64,000 nucleotides of DNA from Marinoscillum sp. 108 (GTDB lineage: Bacteria; Bacteroidota; Bacteroidia; Cytophagales; Cyclobacteriaceae). Shown piece after piece: positions 51,515 through 62,564 of this stretch (positions are counted from its first letter, which is position 1; each line of letters begins with the position of its first letter). The notes below the pieces were generated by a model that saw nothing but the letters and a program-made list of their open reading frames with translations, was not told where the DNA came from and searched no databases. The stretch lies in the NCBI RefSeq assembly GCF_902506655.1, contig NZ_LR734808.1, positions 1,178,001 to 1,242,000 of the forward strand. Direction: 5' to 3'. The position numbers were made by a program, and so were the translations under genes.

Positions 51515-51835
51515 ATGAACACAGATCGAATCAGGCAGCTTGAGAAATTCATAGAGGATGATCCAAATGACCCTTTTCCAAAATACGCGCTCGCTCTGGA
51601 ACACCTTCAAGAAAATAAGGAAAAAAGTGCGCAATTGTTTGAAGAATTACTAAAAAATCATTCGAAATATATAGGCACCTATTATCATGCCGCGGCACTC
51701 TACTCTGAACTAGGCGATCGAAAAAGAGCTGAGCAAATTTACCTGGCGGGTATAGAGATAGCCACTGAGCTCAATGAAGCGCATGCCCTCAAAGAGTTAC
51801 GATCCGCTTATATGAATTTCCAATTTGAGGAATGA
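51515..51835 (+). CDS. Small tetratricopeptide-repeat protein
   Basis: Cytoplasmic protein of 106 residues with about two and a half TPR units (NDPFPKYALALEHLQENKEKSAQLFEELL, KYIGTYYHAAALYSELGDRKRAEQIYLAGI). It probably mediates protein contacts; the partner is unknown. Divergent from etfB across 67 bp. Confidence 0.87.
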   Translation: MNTDRIRQLEKFIEDDPNDPFPKYALALEHLQENKEKSAQLFEELLKNHSKYIGTYYHAAALYSELGDRKRAEQIYLAGIEIATELNEAHALKELRSAYMNFQFEE

Positions 51836-52088: not shown

Positions 52089-54338
52089 ATGGATCTATTA
52101 GAACTCTCTCAGACAGATAGTTTCAACACCACTGACACGCTCTGGATTCTCATCTCAGCAGCACTCGTTTTTTTCATGCAGGCCGGCTTCAAGGTATTGG
52201 AGACAGGCCTGGTCAAATCTGAACACCGCTCCGGAATCGGCATTAAGAACCTGATGGACTGGGTAGCGGGAAGTCTTGCATTCTTCATCATCGGTTTTGG
52301 GTTAATGTTTGGCACCTCCGCCGGAGGGTTCATTGGTACAAGTTTCTTCTTTGGCAATGATCTGGAACCCGGCTATCCGTTGGTGTTCTTCATCTTCCAG
52401 CTTGCTTTTGCAGGCACAGCCCTTACGATCGTCTCCGGTGCTATGTCTGGAAGGACCGCCCTGGCGCCGTACTTCATTGCATCGTTATTTACCGCGGTTC
52501 TGATATACCCTATTTTTGGCCACTGGGCCTGGGGAAACCTACTGAATGAAGACAATCAACCATGGCTTGCTGGTCTTGGGTTTATGGACTTTGCCGGCTC
52601 CACTGTAGTACACTCTGTAGGCGCTTGGGTAGGTCTGGTCGGCATTTGGATGGTAGGGCCCCGCCTGGGACGATTCACCTCCAAGGGCACACTCATCCCG
52701 GTGAAAGCTTCTGATTACGCATACAGTGTTTTGGGCGTGATGATCCTTTGGCTGGGCTGGTGGGGATTCAATGGCGGCAGTGCTCTGGCCTTTGATACCT
52801 CCGTGCCCCTCATCATTCTCAACACCAACCTGGCAGCGGCTGGCGCTTGTTTCAGCGCTTATCTACACGCCAAAATATTTCAAAAAAATCAGGACCTGAT
52901 AGAAAAGATCATTGGCGGATCTCTCACAGGGTTGGTAGCCATCACGGCTTGCTGCAACGTGGTCTCCCCTATCAGTAGTTTGATTATTGGGCTACTCGCC
53001 GGTGTTATTCATAATATTTCCTATATCATTATTTCAGAAAAATGGAAGTTGGATGATCCCGTTGGTGCCATTCCAGTACATGGATTTGGTGGCGTATTCG
53101 GTACACTTTGCGTAGCGCTTTTCGGAAAAGAAGAGTTCCTCATGCACGGCAGAGGCACTCAACTCGTCGTGCAAATTTTTGGGATCATCGTGTGCTTCGT
53201 ATTCACTGTAGGGGTCTCCTACCTCATTTTCCTGTTGATTAAATCCACAATCGGACTTAGACTCTCCCCTAATGAAGAGGTAGATGGCGCCATATTTGGT
53301 GCGCAGGTTCAGTCCATGGAGCTGGATGAACTACCTGAGCAAACGGTGAGTCAAGTATCAGTAAGAGTGGGCGAGCGGGCATACAACCTCTTCAAAGTGG
53401 ATGAATATCTCAACCTGCCTCGAGAAACCCGCATCAATCTGATCAAAAACGAAGGTGTACAATACCTCGACGACTCTGGCAATGTGGTACCCACTTTAAA
53501 GGCTGTAAGGTACCTCTCCGGTATCATCGAGGAGCAAAGAGACAAGAGCACCACGTCGATTGATCTGGTGGAGCTTTCTTTTTACAAGGATAAAATGGAT
53601 GTCATCGGCAACATGCAGGATGTGCTACTCGGAGAAGAACACTCCATCACCAGCGTATTTGAAGATTCTTTCCTTTTACTGAAACCGAAAGGAAAGGTAT
53701 CGTCGGGATTTTACTGGCATGGCAAGGAAAAAGGATACAACATCGCCATAGCCGCCACCTCCCAGGATCCCGACATTTCGAGTGCATTTATTACGGCACT
53801 TACCATCTCTCAGCTCAATGAGATAGTGGGAATCAAAAAAATATTAGCCCCAGAGAAAGTGCTCGAAATTCTGGATCAAAAGCTCACTATGGCACTTGGC
53901 CAATCCAAAGCCGACGAGGAAGTGAGAAAAGGTGTAGAAATCGGGATGCTATTGGTAGATACGGTCAGAAGGAGGGTTTATTATTCAGGATCGGGATCAG
54001 GTGTAAAGCTATACGCCAAAAAGCTAGATAGTATCCTTACAGAATTTAAAGGACTGGATGTTCCGCTCGGTATGTCCGGAAAAGCTCAAAAGAAATTTGA
54101 ACGAGTCAAAATAGATTACTCAAAAGGTGACGCTTTCTTCCTTTGTACAGAAGGATTTCCGAACCAACTGAATGAAAGCGGCAAGCGATATTCCACCACC
54201 AAATTCAGGGTACTCCTGGAGAAGGGTGCCGGAAAATCCATGGCTGATCAGAAAATAAATATTACCACCGAACTGGAAAACTGGAAAGGTAAAGAAGACC
54301 AAACCGAGGACATTTTGGTCATGGGCATCAAACCCTGA
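52089..54338 (+). CDS. Ammonium transporter fused to a degenerate SpoIIE/PP2C-like domain
   Basis: Protein of 749 residues. Residues 1-400 are an Amt channel with the key pore residues: Asp167 (MDFAGSTVVH), twin His175 and His331 (PVHGFGG), and WWGFNGGSA. Residues about 400-515 form a linker. Residues about 520-749 follow the SpoIIE phosphatase pattern (FLLLKPKGKVSSGFYW, ITALTISQLNEIV, YYSGSGSGVKLY, FLCTEGFPNQ, EDILVMGIKP). The metal ligands of the usual SGDFYW and ADCTGHGVPG motifs are replaced (SSGFYW, AATSQDPDISSAF), so it is likely a pseudophosphatase. Inference: a transceptor that reports ammonium flux to a cytoplasmic partner. No glnK lies adjacent. It is preceded by a 253-bp AT-rich spacer and ends at a bidirectional terminator. 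Confidence 0.88.
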   Translation: MDLLELSQTDSFNTTDTLWILISAALVFFMQAGFKVLETGLVKSEHRSGIGIKNLMDWVAGSLAFFIIGFGLMFGTSAGGFIGTSFFFGNDLEPGYPLVFFIFQLAFAGTALTIVSGAMSGRTALAPYFIASLFTAVLIYPIFGHWAWGNLLNEDNQPWLAGLGFMDFAGSTVVHSVGAWVGLVGIWMVGPRLGRFTSKGTLIPVKASDYAYSVLGVMILWLGWWGFNGGSALAFDTSVPLIILNTNLAAAGACFSAYLHAKIFQKNQDLIEKIIGGSLTGLVAITACCNVVSPISSLIIGLLAGVIHNISYIIISEKWKLDDPVGAIPVHGFGGVFGTLCVALFGKEEFLMHGRGTQLVVQIFGIIVCFVFTVGVSYLIFLLIKSTIGLRLSPNEEVDGAIFGAQVQSMELDELPEQTVSQVSVRVGERAYNLFKVDEYLNLPRETRINLIKNEGVQYLDDSGNVVPTLKAVRYLSGIIEEQRDKSTTSIDLVELSFYKDKMDVIGNMQDVLLGEEHSITSVFEDSFLLLKPKGKVSSGFYWHGKEKGYNIAIAATSQDPDISSAFITALTISQLNEIVGIKKILAPEKVLEILDQKLTMALGQSKADEEVRKGVEIGMLLVDTVRRRVYYSGSGSGVKLYAKKLDSILTEFKGLDVPLGMSGKAQKKFERVKIDYSKGDAFFLCTEGFPNQLNESGKRYSTTKFRVLLEKGAGKSMADQKINITTELENWKGKEDQTEDILVMGIKP

Positions 54339-54361: not shown

Positions 54362-54393
54362 AAAAAACGTCTGGCTCAGGTCAGACGTTTTTT
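54362..54393. terminator. Bidirectional terminator
   Basis: Perfect 12-bp repeat AAAAAACGTCTG (54362-54373) and CAGACGTTTTTT (54382-54393) with an 8-base loop. It lies between convergent genes and touches the stop codon of the minus-strand gene at 54393. Confidence 0.88.
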
Positions 54394-55385
54394 TATATCA
54401 TCTCCAGCACCACCTTACCAAATTGACTGGAGCTTCCCGTTTGGCGTATAGCCTCAACACCCTCTGCAAATGGATGTACGGAATCAACGATTGGTTTGAT
54501 CTGATGGCTGGTAATGAAATCAACCATAGACGCAAATTCCTCATCGTTGCCCATGGTAGACCCCACGATGGATGCTTGCGACCAAAATAATCTAAATAAA
54601 TCAAGTCCTTCTGTTTTCCCCGTAGTGCTGCCATACACCACAATACGGCCTCCCGGCTGAATAAGTCTCAGGTAATCATTAATGGCATTTCCCCCTGCAC
54701 TGTCAATGATGGCGTCAAACTTATTCACTTTTCCGCCTGCCTCTTTCACCCAGCCCGCGTCAGTATAGTTGAACCCGCCGGAGGCACCCATTCTCATCAT
54801 TCTTGTCAGCTTATCGTCACTGCTGCTGGTCACATACACTTCAGCACCAACAGCCAGAGCAAAAGCACAAGCGAACTGAGACACCCCGCCTCCTACACCC
54901 GTGACCAGGACTTTTTGATTTCTCTGAACGTTGGCCTTTCTGAATACCGCCCTGTATGCGGTGAGGGCAGCCAGTGGGAATGCTGCAGCCTCTGTATCAC
55001 TCAAATAGTAGGGTTTTTCGATCAACCGATCTGTTGGTACCATTAGATACTCTGCGAAAGTTCCATTTTCAGGGGTACCCAGAATAGAGTATTGAGAAGA
55101 TTGATGCTCGGGGTTATCCCCCCAGTTGATGTTTGGATTGATCAGCACAGTCTTGCCCATCCAGGCCGGTTCACCAGCTATTACCTCTCCGCATCCGTCC
55201 GAGCCCAAAACCACACCATCTTTGATGCCTGGATATTTCCCTACGGAAATCCAGTAGTCACGCCTGTTAAGAGCGGCAGCTTTTATTCTCACCAGACAGT
55301 GGCCCGGCTTCAAAACCGGATCAGAAACTTCTGAAAACTCCAGTTGATACTTTTGACCATTCGCTCTGACTACAATCGCTTTCAT
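54393..55385 (-). CDS. Zinc-free MDR-type NAD(P)H:quinone oxidoreductase-like dehydrogenase
   Basis: Medium-chain dehydrogenase of 330 residues. It has the GroES-like N-terminal domain (KPGHCLVRIKAAALNRRDYW, LGSDGCGEVI) and a Rossmann domain with the VTGVGGGVSQFACAFALAVGAEV motif. The zinc-site cysteines of classical alcohol dehydrogenases are not evident, so it fits the quinone oxidoreductase (QOR/YogA) branch. Substrate unknown. The start codon directly abuts the dnaB stop, so it is co-transcribed behind dnaB. Confidence 0.88.
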   Translation of the reverse strand: MKAIVVRANGQKYQLEFSEVSDPVLKPGHCLVRIKAAALNRRDYWISVGKYPGIKDGVVLGSDGCGEVIAGEPAWMGKTVLINPNINWGDNPEHQSSQYSILGTPENGTFAEYLMVPTDRLIEKPYYLSDTEAAAFPLAALTAYRAVFRKANVQRNQKVLVTGVGGGVSQFACAFALAVGAEVYVTSSSDDKLTRMMRMGASGGFNYTDAGWVKEAGGKVNKFDAIIDSAGGNAINDYLRLIQPGGRIVVYGSTTGKTEGLDLFRLFWSQASIVGSTMGNDEEFASMVDFITSHQIKPIVDSVHPFAEGVEAIRQTGSSSQFGKVVLEMI

Positions 55386-58616: not shown

Positions 58617-60788
58617 ATGGCCAAAACGATCATCGTATCAAATAGATTACCTGTAAAGATCTCTCAGGAGAACGGTAAATATAACTACATGCCCAGTGAA
58701 GGTGGACTTGCCACCGGACTAGGGTCTATCTACAAAGATGGCGACAACATCTGGATCGGTTGGCCTGGCCTGGCAGTCTCTAAAGCAGATCATCAGAAAG
58801 AGATCACCAAAAAGCTGAAAACAGAGAGTATGAAGCCGGTATTTCTCACCAATACCGAAATCGAAGAGTTCTACGAAGGCTTCAGCAACGAAACCCTCTG
58901 GCCCAATTTTCACTACTTCAATCAATACATCGTATTTGATGATGACATGTGGCGTGCCTATCAGAAGGTAAATCGCAAATTTGCCCGTGCCATCGCTGAG
59001 GTACTGGAGCCAGAAGACACCATTTGGGTACACGATTATCAGCTGCTGCTTTTACCCGAGATGTTGAGGGAATCTGCCCCAAAGGCAAGCATTGGCTTCT
59101 TCCTGCACATCCCCTTCCCCTCCTACGAATCCTTCAGACTACTACCTTGGAGAAGAGAACTGCTGGAGGGCATGCTGGGAGCTGACTTCCTCGGGTTCCA
59201 CACCTATGATGACATGAGGCACTTCCTTTCGTCAGTCAACAGACTGGCGGGACTGGGCAATAGCAATGGCATGATCAATGTGGACAACAGAAAAGTGATG
59301 GTGGATGCCCTACCTATGGGTATTGACTATGACAAATATGCCGAATCTGCTGCCGCAAAAGAGACCCTGGAAAGAGAGGCCCGATATCGAGAATCCATCG
59401 GTGCTCAGAAGCTCATACTCTCCATCGACAGGCTCGACTACTCCAAGGGTATTCCACAAAGGCTCAAAGCCTTCGAATTGTTTCTGGAACAAAACCCGGA
59501 CTACAGAGAAAAGGTATCTCTGCTCATGGTCGTGGTGCCCTCAAGAGATCAGGTGGGTAAATACAAGGAACTCAAAGAGGAAATAGACCTCCTGGTAGGG
59601 CGGATCAACGGAAATTATTCCCGGTTGAACTGGACACCCATTCACTATTTTTATCGATCCTTCCCGCTCAACGCGCTTTCTGCATTTTACCGAATGGCGG
59701 AAGTGGCCATGGTCACTCCTATGAGAGACGGGATGAACCTGGTATGTAAGGAATTCATCGCGAGTAAGCTGGACAAGAAGGGCGTCCTGATCCTCAGCGA
59801 AATGGCGGGAGCTTCCAAAGAACTCTCAGACGCCATCCTTATCAATCCCAACGACATGGGAGAGTTGGTCAATGCCATCAAAACAGCTCTGACAATGCCC
59901 GTCAAAAAGCAGATGGCCAATATGATCAGCATGCAGCGATCGCTGCAGAGGTACAACATTCACCATTGGGTCAACCTTTTCATGGAACGTCTCCACCACA
60001 TCAAACATGAGCAGAAGGCACTGGAGACCCAACTACTGGATAAAACCATTACTTCCAGACTCACCAAGAGTTATCAGGCCGCCAAGAAGCGCATGATCTT
60101 CCTGGACTATGATGGCACCCTTGTAGGGTTTGACAGTGATCCATTGAAAACCAAACCTGATAAAGGACTGAAGACGATCCTTGCCAAACTAACCGCGGAC
60201 AAGAAAAACCGTGTGGTGGTAATCAGTGGCAGAGGCAGAGACACCCTTGAGGAGTGGCTGTCAGACTTTGACCTGGAAATCATAGCCGAGCACGGAGTTT
60301 GGATCAAAGAGAGAGGGAAGAAATTCAGGACACTTACCAGCCTAAATGATAATTGGAAAGGCCCAATCATGAAGGTATTGGATGGTTATGTAGATCGTAC
60401 ACCCGGAAGTTTTGTAGAGAAAAAGGACTACTCGCTGGTCTGGCACTACAGAAAGGTAGAAACCGGACTTGGAGAGGCCCGAACAAGAGAACTCACCAGC
60501 CACCTGAAATACATTACAGTAGACAGAAACCTGAAAGTGCTGGAAGGCAATAAGGTAGTGGAAATCAAAAACTCTGAAATAGATAAAGGGCGTGCCGCCA
60601 CTGTATGGCTCAATAAGCACCCCTCAGATTTTGTGATGGCCTGCGGTGACGATTGGACAGATGAGGACACTTTCAAGGTCATGCCAGATAGTGCCTACAC
60701 CATCAAGGTAGGCACCACCTCATCAGCAGCCAAATACCGGGTCACTGACTTCCATGACATTAGAAAACTCCTGAAAAGCCTGCTATAA
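58617..60788 (+). CDS. Bifunctional trehalose-6-phosphate synthase / trehalose-6-phosphate phosphatase
   Basis: Fused OtsA-OtsB enzyme of 723 residues. The N-terminal GT20 domain (1-470) begins IIVSNRLPVKI and has GWPGLAVS, WVHDYQLLLLPEML, and RLDYSKGIPQRLKAF, joining UDP-glucose with glucose 6-phosphate. The HAD phosphatase starts at about 490, with nucleophile Asp497 and Asp499 in FLDYDGTL and the ligand motif CGDDWTDED near the end. Together they make trehalose, a stress protectant. The convergent GH15 gene overlaps its stop by 6 bp. A weak promoter-like TATCTTTA lies at 58590-58597. Confidence 0.95.
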   Translation: MAKTIIVSNRLPVKISQENGKYNYMPSEGGLATGLGSIYKDGDNIWIGWPGLAVSKADHQKEITKKLKTESMKPVFLTNTEIEEFYEGFSNETLWPNFHYFNQYIVFDDDMWRAYQKVNRKFARAIAEVLEPEDTIWVHDYQLLLLPEMLRESAPKASIGFFLHIPFPSYESFRLLPWRRELLEGMLGADFLGFHTYDDMRHFLSSVNRLAGLGNSNGMINVDNRKVMVDALPMGIDYDKYAESAAAKETLEREARYRESIGAQKLILSIDRLDYSKGIPQRLKAFELFLEQNPDYREKVSLLMVVVPSRDQVGKYKELKEEIDLLVGRINGNYSRLNWTPIHYFYRSFPLNALSAFYRMAEVAMVTPMRDGMNLVCKEFIASKLDKKGVLILSEMAGASKELSDAILINPNDMGELVNAIKTALTMPVKKQMANMISMQRSLQRYNIHHWVNLFMERLHHIKHEQKALETQLLDKTITSRLTKSYQAAKKRMIFLDYDGTLVGFDSDPLKTKPDKGLKTILAKLTADKKNRVVVISGRGRDTLEEWLSDFDLEIIAEHGVWIKERGKKFRTLTSLNDNWKGPIMKVLDGYVDRTPGSFVEKKDYSLVWHYRKVETGLGEARTRELTSHLKYITVDRNLKVLEGNKVVEIKNSEIDKGRAATVWLNKHPSDFVMACGDDWTDEDTFKVMPDSAYTIKVGTTSSAAKYRVTDFHDIRKLLKSLL

Positions 60789-62564
60789 GAAGTCAGGCTT
60801 ATCAAGTTTTCTGGCAATTCTGGAGGCTGCATTGAGCAGACCCACATGGCTATACGCCTGGGGGAAGTTACCCCACATACCACCATCTTTTTCGTTGACA
60901 TCTTCGCTGAGTAGCCCCACGTGGTTAGAGTAAGAGAGGATGTTCTCGAAATACTTGATAGATTCATCCAGTCTGCCCACACAGGCAAGAGCCTCTACGT
61001 ACCAGAACGCACAAATAAGAAAAGTAGTCTCCGGAGCGCCGAAATCATCCTGATGCTTATAGCGGTAGAAGAGTCCATCCTTCGCATGTAGCTCCTTCTC
61101 CAGTGCCTTCAGGTGGTCTTTAGCTTCCTGTGTATTACCATCCAGATAGTTCATCATAATGAGCTGTAAGGTGCTGGCATCCATGCGCTCCACCCCTACA
61201 GCCTGAGCATAGCCCTTCTTGGAAGGCACATAGCATTTCTGAATCATCTCCTGAGAACGCTTTTGCAAACGGGCAGCCTTTTCCCCCATGGCCTTATCCC
61301 CTATCACTTCGGCAATCTTCAGCGCGGCACTACTGCCTGTCCAATGGAAAAGATAAGTATAGCAATGATGCTGACGTAAATTTCTGAATTCCCACAAACC
61401 AGCATCCGTTTCGTCAAACGTCTTCTCAATCATATCCAGAGTTTTGCTCACCAACTCAGATGAGTCAAATCGCTCGGTGAATATAATTCGCTTATCCGCA
61501 TAAAGAGGTAACAATGAGATCAATACCTGCCCATAAACATCATTCTGAATGTGTGTGTATGCGTCGTTTCCAATACGCACGGGCTGATTCCCCATGTAGC
61601 CAGCCAGATCAAGTTCCTTCTCTATGAGGGCTTTCTGTCCACTAATGCCGTAGAGTGGCTGATAGCGATTGGTCTCCTCTATCGTGGTATTGAGGATGTA
61701 GTGAAAATACTTTTCGGACTCCTCAAAGTGGCCAATGTTATTGAAGGCATTGAGGGTATAGTAGGTATCCCGCATCCAGCAATAGCGATAATCCCAATTT
61801 CGCGTACTCCCGGGCGACTCAGGCAAACTGGTAGTAGCTGCTGCTATTATCGCTCCGGTATCCTCATACTGGTGAATTTTAAGGATAAGAGCTGACCGGA
61901 TGGCTGCACGCTGATAAAAGTTGACAATATTGGCTGTCTTCACCCAATCACGCCAATAATTTTTTGTTTTATACAGGAAGTTTTCAATGGTTTCGAGCAG
62001 TGGCCCCTCAAGCGGCGCCCCGTAGGTAAAGACCAGGTACTTATTCTCGTTCAACACAAAACTCTCTTCGCTCATCACATAGTTGAGGGAGATGTTGGTG
62101 GTCAAACGCACGTGGGCATCCAGTCCCAAAAACTGGATATGATTACTCCCCATCGTAGCTTGTGGGGTGATTTCACCATAATTCCCTTTAGGTGCACACT
62201 TCACTACCAACCTAGGGTTACCTTCCAGGCGCTCTATCTTTCTCACCAGCATGAGTGGTCTATAGTAACGGTCATTCTGATAAAATCGAGGGGCAAAATC
62301 AGTCACCCGGTACTTTCCGGTTTCCGAAACCACTTCTGTGCAAAGAATATTAGTGTTCTCTACATAATATTGTTTAGTCTTAAAATCAGGCTCAAGGGGC
62401 TTCACAGAAAACTCACCACCCTTTTCCTTATCCAGCAGGCTACCAAAAATAAAACTGCTATCAAATCTCGGCCAGCACATCCAGGCTATGCTGGTGTCTG
62501 TGTGAATGTGAGCGGTATATGCACAATTGCCAATTACACCATAATCATAAGTGTGTCTTTGCAT
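60783..62564 (-). CDS. Glycoside hydrolase family 15 protein (trehalase/glucoamylase type)
   Basis: Protein of 593 residues with no signal peptide: N-terminal beta-sandwich (1-200) and an (alpha/alpha)6 barrel (about 215-590) with NWDYRYCWMRDTYYTL (256-271). A catalytic acid candidate is Glu392 (GLWEFR). The base position in TGExLGNFPQ aligns with Gly562 (DGGMWGNFPQAYSHVGL), so the second Glu may be elsewhere or absent. It converges on the trehalose synthesis gene with a 6-bp overlap, which favours trehalase over starch glucoamylase. The same GH15-OtsA pairing is known in other bacteria. Confidence 0.88.
   Translation of the reverse strand: MQRHTYDYGVIGNCAYTAHIHTDTSIAWMCWPRFDSSFIFGSLLDKEKGGEFSVKPLEPDFKTKQYYVENTNILCTEVVSETGKYRVTDFAPRFYQNDRYYRPLMLVRKIERLEGNPRLVVKCAPKGNYGEITPQATMGSNHIQFLGLDAHVRLTTNISLNYVMSEESFVLNENKYLVFTYGAPLEGPLLETIENFLYKTKNYWRDWVKTANIVNFYQRAAIRSALILKIHQYEDTGAIIAAATTSLPESPGSTRNWDYRYCWMRDTYYTLNAFNNIGHFEESEKYFHYILNTTIEETNRYQPLYGISGQKALIEKELDLAGYMGNQPVRIGNDAYTHIQNDVYGQVLISLLPLYADKRIIFTERFDSSELVSKTLDMIEKTFDETDAGLWEFRNLRQHHCYTYLFHWTGSSAALKIAEVIGDKAMGEKAARLQKRSQEMIQKCYVPSKKGYAQAVGVERMDASTLQLIMMNYLDGNTQEAKDHLKALEKELHAKDGLFYRYKHQDDFGAPETTFLICAFWYVEALACVGRLDESIKYFENILSYSNHVGLLSEDVNEKDGGMWGNFPQAYSHVGLLNAASRIARKLDKPDFL

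Follow-up and report, generated by a model that had tools for sequence, protein, structure and literature searches.

An Amt sensor with a kinase output has already been characterised, and reportedly so has one with a diguanylate cyclase output. Ks-Amt5 of Kuenenia, in which an ammonium channel (Amt) is joined to a histidine kinase, binds two ammonium ions through Q24, E31, N47, D50, T51, T109 and T112, a seven-residue site that, according to its authors, assimilatory Amts lack (PMC5764959). That paper also describes Amts as trimeric, states that the coupling in Ks-Amt5 needs further study, and notes, citing Tremblay and Hallenbeck 2009, that Amts joined to other domains had been noticed earlier (PMC5764959).

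On the phosphatase side, the conserved active-site residues of SiaA include D457, D474, D600 and D653, and SiaA-PP2C is dimeric (PMC7647112). Helical linkers that move PPM domains have been documented, and the inactive PPM domain of Escherichia coli RssB is described as an adaptor (PMC12143880, PMC7226468). Kinases, cyclases and PPM phosphatases have been proposed to form an exchangeable toolkit (PMC12143880).

The DNA analysed here, called the window, is a stretch of 64,000 nucleotides from Marinoscillum sp. 108. It contains a gene in which an Amt is joined, through a small domain that we call the companion, to a degenerate PP2C domain. We favour, at about even confidence, the reading that this protein is a single-chain ammonium receptor with a pseudophosphatase adaptor output, for which a SiaC-family protein would be the likeliest partner. 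Features of the fusion and of its relatives are described below.

Architecture and occurrence of the fusion

The gene, its parts and its immediate neighbours are as follows.

52089–54338, + strand: fusion gene, one unbroken open reading frame of 749 amino acids
52140–53288, + strand: Amt channel domain, residues 18–400; Pfam Ammonium_transp (PF00909), 349 bits
53346–53534, + strand: companion domain, residues 420–482; HMM and alignment
53493–53630, + strand: long helix from the companion to the PP2C domain, residues 469–514; AlphaFold model of the tail
53646–54335, + strand: degenerate SpoIIE/PP2C domain, residues 520–749; Pfam and the NCBIfam SiaA model
51515–51835, + strand: small TPR-like gene, upstream; TPR matches under the Pfam cut-offs
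54393–55385, − strand: zinc-type dehydrogenase gene, downstream and convergent

In the Pfam scan of the protein, the Ammonium_transp match (cut-off 23.2 bits) is followed by a SpoIIE match at residues 562–747 (45.7 bits, cut-off 25 bits), and no Pfam domain was found between the two. The original prediction, made from the sequence alone, described a complete Amt continuing in one frame into a tail of about 230 residues with the SpoIIE/PP2C layout, and both halves are as it described them. The protein has three parts, however, and the domain at residues 420–482 had been missed. The host genome (5.2 Mb), which belongs to a genus-level group shared with Marinoscillum furvescens, encodes two further Amts, found with the fusion as query, and five further SpoIIE-domain genes, found by a search for that family. 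A structure model of the full-length protein was poor (pLDDT 61.8 from 11 sequences), and therefore no domain packing was taken from it.

We found nine full-length matches to the fusion in a family sample of 196 genomes, together with a tenth match that is a tail fragment at a contig edge (G161). A scan at species level detects only places that have short peptides in common with the query. It gave 27 loci, eight of them full fusions, of which six duplicate matches from the family sample. The 11 distinct full-length fusions, which were aligned, comprise six from the clade of the window fusion, four from a Reichenbachiella group and one from UBA2561, and their bearers include Marinoscillum furvescens DSM 4134 and Reichenbachiella agariperforans DSM 26134. 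A misjoin, which the original prediction would have suspected had no relative carried the fusion, is ruled out by its full-length presence in 11 distinct genomes, as is a chance frame. In G133, of the same genus, we found separate Amts only and no fusion. All the fusions found come from a single order, and remote versions could escape the searches used.

The architecture is conserved across the 11 fusions, with a mean pairwise identity of 0.72 for the Amt, 0.50 for the companion and 0.39 for the PP2C part. The spacing between companion and PP2C domain is 55 residues in every one of the six fusions from the window's clade, 57 in each of the four from the Reichenbachiella group and 50 in UBA2561, a constancy that fits a helix of fixed length. 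In the Amt tree, proteins that have the companion and no PP2C domain fall within the fusion group, and in the PP2C tree UBA2561 was not placed. Loss of the PP2C domain in genus g115 and a separate gain of it in UBA2561 are both possible.

The companion domain and the Amt half

The companion occurs in relatives as a separate small gene just after a free Amt, as part of an Amt fusion without PP2C (Amt::companion), or as the last part of a TetR-like protein beside an Amt. In the tail model its topology is strand-strand-helix-helix-strand; the long helix begins inside it, and the pLDDT dips to about 59 within that helix. The standalone companions that were scanned gave no Pfam or NCBIfam match above cut-off, and neither they nor the fusion match the PII family (PF00543). 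A companion HMM, based on 11 fused copies and three encoded separately, revealed more copies beside Amts in loci of Bacteroidota, Myxococcota and Acidimicrobiales, the remotest of which are weak (E about 1e-6 to 2e-3). With this HMM no companion was found beside the Amts of L054, L055, L060 and L061, nor at L049, whose contig ends soon after the Amt.

An order sample of 390 genomes yielded 25 companion matches in 20 genomes. Four are full fusions and 13 are Amt::companion proteins of 519–543 residues without PP2C, from genus g115. Five are separate genes beside an Amt, and one is a frame joined to an interrupted Amt; the companion is thus fused to or directly beside an Amt in 23 of the 25. The remaining two are a companion with no Amt for about 6 kb around it and a doubtful match that contains stops. 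Amt::companion proteins without PP2C are not confined to genus g115, as G124 encodes one too. That genome also has the full fusion and an Amt whose companion is a separate gene, and the last two are likewise found together in G175 and in G180. Across a phylum sample of 395 genomes, the only match was in the host genome itself (G000).

Other arrangements link the companion to regulators. In two Sericytochromatia loci it forms the C-terminal end of a TetR-like protein encoded on the opposite strand beside an Amt. For one of these (L050) a Pfam TetR_N match was obtained; the other (L057) is called by sequence similarity to L050, and its companion match is weak (E 1e-4). In one genome (L045, the same as L114) consecutive genes encode an Amt, a companion and a 1218-residue protein with a propeller, a GAF domain and an intact SpoIIE domain.

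The companion is an unnamed domain and the part of the fusion that may prove new, and it is the best clue to how the Amt couples to the tail. We tentatively suggest, with less confidence than we place in the receptor itself, that it defines an undescribed ammonium-signalling module, in which a sensor-type Amt is paired with a small coupling protein in a GlnK-like role and outputs are wired in by fusion or gene order. If so, the outputs would be the Amt itself, TetR-like regulators and active PP2C enzymes, and in the present clade a pseudophosphatase that signals through docking alone. The companion also offers a small, testable handle on signal transfer from Amts to the cytoplasm.

The Amt half belongs to the Amt/Rh family, having the full-length Amt fold with its twin-His pair; F107, W148, D167, H175, F227, S231 and H331 are all present. 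Asp167, His175 and His331, to which the original prediction had pointed, are invariant in all 11 aligned fusions. The best PDB chain is the Amt domain of Ks-Amt5 (6eu6, 335 bits), followed by 8qj3/8qpf (281 bits) and E. coli AmtB (about 90 bits). Most of the site reported for Ks-Amt5 can be located in the fusion.

52179–52436, + strand: span of the Ks-Amt5-type intramembrane NH4+ site, with Q31, E38, N54, D57, T113 and S116

Compared with the residues given for Ks-Amt5 (PMC5764959), Q31, E38, N54, D57 and T113 are identical, S116 stands for a Thr, and W58 stands for T51. We compared the columns of this site over 67 Amt rows. Every one of the 11 fusions, of the 13 Amt::companion proteins and of the 15 Amts with a separate companion in the table carries the Q/E/N/D/T/S residues. 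None of the six is found in the GlnK-linked AmtB of the host genome. In the third host Amt, a free Amt (L002), and in its 15 relatives, Gln is replaced by His and Asp by Ile or Thr. In the one TetR-linked Amt of the table (L050), Asn is replaced by His. The same six residues are also found in 8qj3, in L019, L020 and L054, where no companion was detected, and in L049 at its contig end. Since the full site occurs in Amts without a detected companion as well, it marks a sensor-like group and is no proof of the wiring described here.

The fusion is not alone in being close to Ks-Amt5, as L002 also matches 6eu6 best (249 bits). Nor is a long loop 5 distinctive: it spans 20 columns in both the fusion and Ks-Amt5, compared with 19 for the L002 group and 15 for AmtB. 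Of the three residues that block the pore in Ks-Amt5, two are replaced by Leu in the fusion (L37 and L41), so its Amt may conduct. In the Amt tree, one supported group (100/99) unites L049, L054 and L055 with all Amts that are fused or linked to a companion. Ks-Amt5 neighbours this group with weak support (82/48), and its position is unsure because of long branches. Judged by its residues, the Amt half appears to be a sensor-type Amt with most of the two-ion site of Ks-Amt5.

The original prediction had proposed a search for conserved neighbours of such fusions. In the nine loci with long flanks that were compared (L012 and L013, with short flanks, were left out), the genes next to the fusion include no conserved partner candidate. 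Four loci of the same genus share a flavoprotein and other genes upstream, and the other five have no common immediate neighbour. The only PII match in the host genome adjoins the GlnK-linked AmtB and is not near the fusion. Promoter-like sites are no commoner than in shuffles; terminator-like sites number seven versus a mean of 2.8 in shuffles, and all seven lie inside genes.

The strongest rival to the receptor reading concerns the channel itself. The companion and the pseudo-PP2C domain could form a built-in cytoplasmic cap that gates the Amt pore, doing the job of GlnK with no downstream partner. Companion genes lie directly after Amts, as glnK lies after amtB; there is no PII gene near the fusion and no conserved partner gene; and in genus g115 and the second Amt of G124 the companion is fused without any output domain. 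However, a PP2C fold of 230 residues far exceeds the needs of a cap, the TetR-companion proteins and the row of Amt, companion and SpoIIE genes point to outward signalling, and the sensor-site residues are conserved. We consider a cap unlikely.

Fold of the tail and its catalytic residues

An AlphaFold model of residues 417–749, built from 20 aligned sequences, has a mean pLDDT of 87.5, and its best Foldseek match is SiaA-PP2C (6k4e; E 6.5e-19, TM 0.88 by target length). RsbX, Pseudomonas aeruginosa RssB and SpoIIE come next, and E. coli RssB and the RsbU-RsbW protein Rv1364c (3ke6) are matched as well. The model and these matches place the tail in the PP2C fold, as had been predicted. The tail scores 77.8 bits against the NCBIfam SiaA model NF038263, over the C-terminal part of the model only and against a curated cut-off of 700 bits, and it is not a SiaA equivalog.

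SpoIIE-type PP2C domains include the RsbU and SpoIIE enzymes, which act on STAS proteins, and SpoIIE (5ucg) and Rv1364c (3ke6) are among the fold matches of the tail. A receptor of the proposed kind could thus have an anti-sigma-factor antagonist (a STAS protein) as its partner instead of SiaC, as the original prediction had suggested. We regard this as improbable. SiaA, whose described target is SiaC, is by a wide margin the best match of the tail in both sequence and fold, which argues, if weakly, against a STAS partner. Because SiaA is the best match and the host genome has SiaB-family and SiaC-family genes (one and eight, respectively), a SiaC-family phosphoprotein is our favoured candidate partner. 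SiaC-family genes are present in 10 of 10 relatives tested, including G133, where no fusion was found, and their presence is therefore not specific and suggestive only.

A SiaB/SiaC locus lies about 38 kb downstream of the fusion, and the spacing recurs in G180. This linkage is absent in G061, G068, G088, G124 and G175, and the contig is too short in G007, G060 and G161. With recurrence in G180 only and five genomes contradicting it, we dropped the linkage as evidence.

The positions of the four SiaA metal ligands (PMC7647112) are occupied in the window fusion as follows.

53706–53708, + strand: G540 for SiaA metal ligand D457
53757–53759, + strand: T557 for SiaA metal ligand D474; alignment within one residue either way, neither candidate being Asp
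54150–54152, + strand: E688 for SiaA metal ligand D600
54306–54308, + strand: E740 for SiaA metal ligand D653

The motifs quoted in the original prediction are correct, namely SSGFYW at residues 538–543, AATSQDPDISSAF at 555–567 and TEG within CTEGF at 686–690. To these we add QTEDILV at 738–744, in which the fourth Asp is now Glu. In addition, D560 takes the position of a conserved Gly (SiaA G477).

The ligand loss is complete in the window fusion, but it is not uniform among relatives. All four Asp are intact in the deep relative UBA2561, and in G068 and L038 the second ligand alone is gone. Among the 11 clade members (10 full-length fusions and the G161 fragment), Asp is kept at the first to fourth ligand positions in 10, 0, 5 and 5 members, respectively. 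At the second position, members of the Reichenbachiella group have Asn and members of the window's subclade Ser or Thr, so the loss of this ligand could be one event or two. Losses of the other ligands differ among clade members, and the window fusion is the only one of 12 compared to lack all four Asp. By comparison, nine of ten other SpoIIE domains keep all four.

The window tail thus has none of the four Asp of active PP2C phosphatases and, judged by its ligands, is not an active PP2C. That it is still a phosphatase, with odd metal coordination and switched by ammonium, seems very improbable to us. The intact set in UBA2561, the single loss in G068 and L038, and the two changes from Asp to Glu in the window fusion, which could in principle still hold metal, are compatible with activity. 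They are set against Gly and Thr in place of D457 and D474, an Asp in place of the conserved Gly, and a D474 equivalent that is missing in 11 of 11 clade members.

The variable decay of the ligands other than the second, the faster divergence of the PP2C half and the sister group of Amt::companion proteins without any PP2C domain would also suit a tail that is a decaying, functionless passenger on a working Amt::companion unit. However, all nine fusions matched in the family sample, the most divergent of them 53% identical to the window fusion, are free of internal stops; the aligned set of 11 was picked for open frames and so gives no second test of this. In four comparisons of the window fusion with clade members, the PP2C part has a pN of 0.26–0.34 versus a pS of 0.73–0.90, which is a contrast of pN with pS and not a dN/dS ratio, as synonymous sites are mostly saturated. 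The fit of the tail to SiaA at the level of the fold is also still high. A mere passenger is a doubtful account of the tail, which is constrained, though less so than the channel.

The series from intact ligands in UBA2561, through one lost in G068 and L038, to four lost in the window fusion lets one ask when a phosphatase turns into an adaptor.

Proposed mechanism and comparison with known systems

With the metal-binding residues lost, ammonium is probably reported by the binding of a partner and not by catalysis. In the proposed receptor, the sensor-type Amt would bind, and perhaps also conduct, ammonium. The 63-residue companion, lying under the Amt trimer, would hand a conformational change to the long helix, which would re-orient the PP2C domain. 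Since that domain cannot hold catalytic metals, we propose that it acts as a docking platform that would hold or release a phosphorylatable partner without dephosphorylating it. The three-domain layout and its persistence among relatives, the residues of the site, the PP2C fold and the missing ligands are backed by sequence or structure model; we infer the binding of the companion to the Amt, signalling through the helix, the adaptor function, the identity of the partner and the direction of the ammonium effect. The original prediction of a transceptor that works by non-catalytic binding agrees with the sensor-type Amt, the PP2C fold and the clade-wide ligand loss; the anti-sigma antagonist that it tentatively named is not supported.

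We count for the receptor the conserved sensor-site residues, of which the GlnK-linked AmtB has none of six, and the linkage of the companion to Amts, to TetR-like proteins and, by gene order, to a SpoIIE protein. The retained PP2C fold, whose D474 equivalent is gone from all 11 clade members, the pN well below a saturated pS, and the precedent of an inactive PP2C domain that acts by binding in E. coli RssB also weigh in its favour. Against it stand the lack of a conserved neighbouring partner, a SiaC presence that is not specific and an NH4+ site that is not specific to fusions. The Ks-Amt5 site differs here at one of its seven residues, the PP2C half has diverged faster than the Amt, and an Amt is trimeric whereas SiaA-PP2C is described as dimeric. 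The poor full-length model and the one companion copy without an Amt within about 6 kb count against it as well.

No report of an Amt-PP2C fusion was found in the literature searched, among the matches listed and with thin coverage of subscription journals; Tremblay and Hallenbeck 2009 may already list this kind of fusion. What appears to be new is the combination of Amt and PP2C on a known theme of Amts with effectors, and the companion is probably its newest part. A PP2C output on an Amt sensor would fill the third slot of the exchangeable toolkit (PMC12143880).

In the AmtB-GlnK pair, a small-protein gene lies directly after the Amt, as separate companion genes do. However, the companion has no PII-family match, and the PII gene of the host lies beside another Amt. 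The second-nearest solved Amt is 8qj3/8qpf (annotated 'Ammonium transporter', 644–661 residues), which has the same six site residues. We take it to be an Amt-diguanylate cyclase fusion of Shewanella, and its effector would thus be unlike that of the fusion.

At the input, the fusion resembles Ks-Amt5 (PMC5764959, 6eu6) in five of seven identical site residues and one Ser for Thr, in an equally long loop 5 and in an effector fused after the C-terminus of the Amt. Neither has a GlnK gene nearby. In contrast to Ks-Amt5, the effector of the fusion is a degenerate PP2C domain and not a kinase, a companion is inserted between Amt and effector, W58 stands for T51, and the pore positions are less bulky. 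At the output, SiaA of P. aeruginosa, the PP2C phosphatase of SiaC (6k4e; PMC7647112), is the best match of the tail in sequence and fold; however, SiaA is active with D457, D474, D600 and D653, of which the window tail has none. RssB of E. coli has a PP2C fold without an active site, works by binding and is connected to its input by a helical linker (PMC7226468, PMC12143880). The window tail has the same fold and has lost its ligands, and it may also act by binding a partner. RssB differs in that its input is an N-terminal receiver domain, its partner is sigma-S and it has no membrane domain, whereas the N-terminal part of the fusion is an Amt. By analogy with these systems, the fusion most likely works like Ks-Amt5 at its input and like RssB at its output.

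Companion domains within and beyond Amt proteins

One sampled genome, G124, encodes the full fusion, an Amt::companion protein without the PP2C domain (L117) and a third Amt with a separate companion (L118).

L117 1023-2621, (+): 533-residue Amt::companion protein that lacks PP2C (G124)
L116 3630-7164: tandem pair of Amt::companion genes (genus g115)
L113 6634-6867, (-): companion-domain gene
L052 7291-7872: extended companion protein (Acidimicrobiales)
L056 4250-4834: extended companion protein (Acidimicrobiales)

There is no Amt within about 6 kb of the L113 gene, and another companion-domain copy in the same genome adjoins an Amt. The Acidimicrobiales proteins contain a second, unnamed part that brings their length to about 195 residues.

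TetR-like proteins that carry the companion domain at the C-terminus are possibly membrane-sequestered regulators.

L050 569-1639, (-): TetR-like companion protein (Sericytochromatia)
L057 4554-5720, (-): TetR-like companion protein (Sericytochromatia)

Both genes adjoin a sensor-type Amt on the opposite strand.

Trehalose genes in the window

Two genes in the window form a convergent pair.

58617-60788, (+): trehalose-phosphate synthase/phosphatase gene
60783-62564, (-): GH15/trehalase-like gene

SiaC-family genes and a SiaABC-like locus

The Marinoscillum genome has eight SiaC-family genes in total; short members are clustered on contig G000:C1, three at L075 and four at L076. The same contig carries a SiaABC-like locus.

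L072 4576-11373: SiaABC-like locus, lying downstream of the fusion at a distance of about 32-38 kb

This locus includes an intact Cache-HAMP-SpoIIE gene, a second degenerate SpoIIE gene with a receiver (ligand positions E, E, N, D), and histidine kinase, SiaB-family kinase and SiaC genes.
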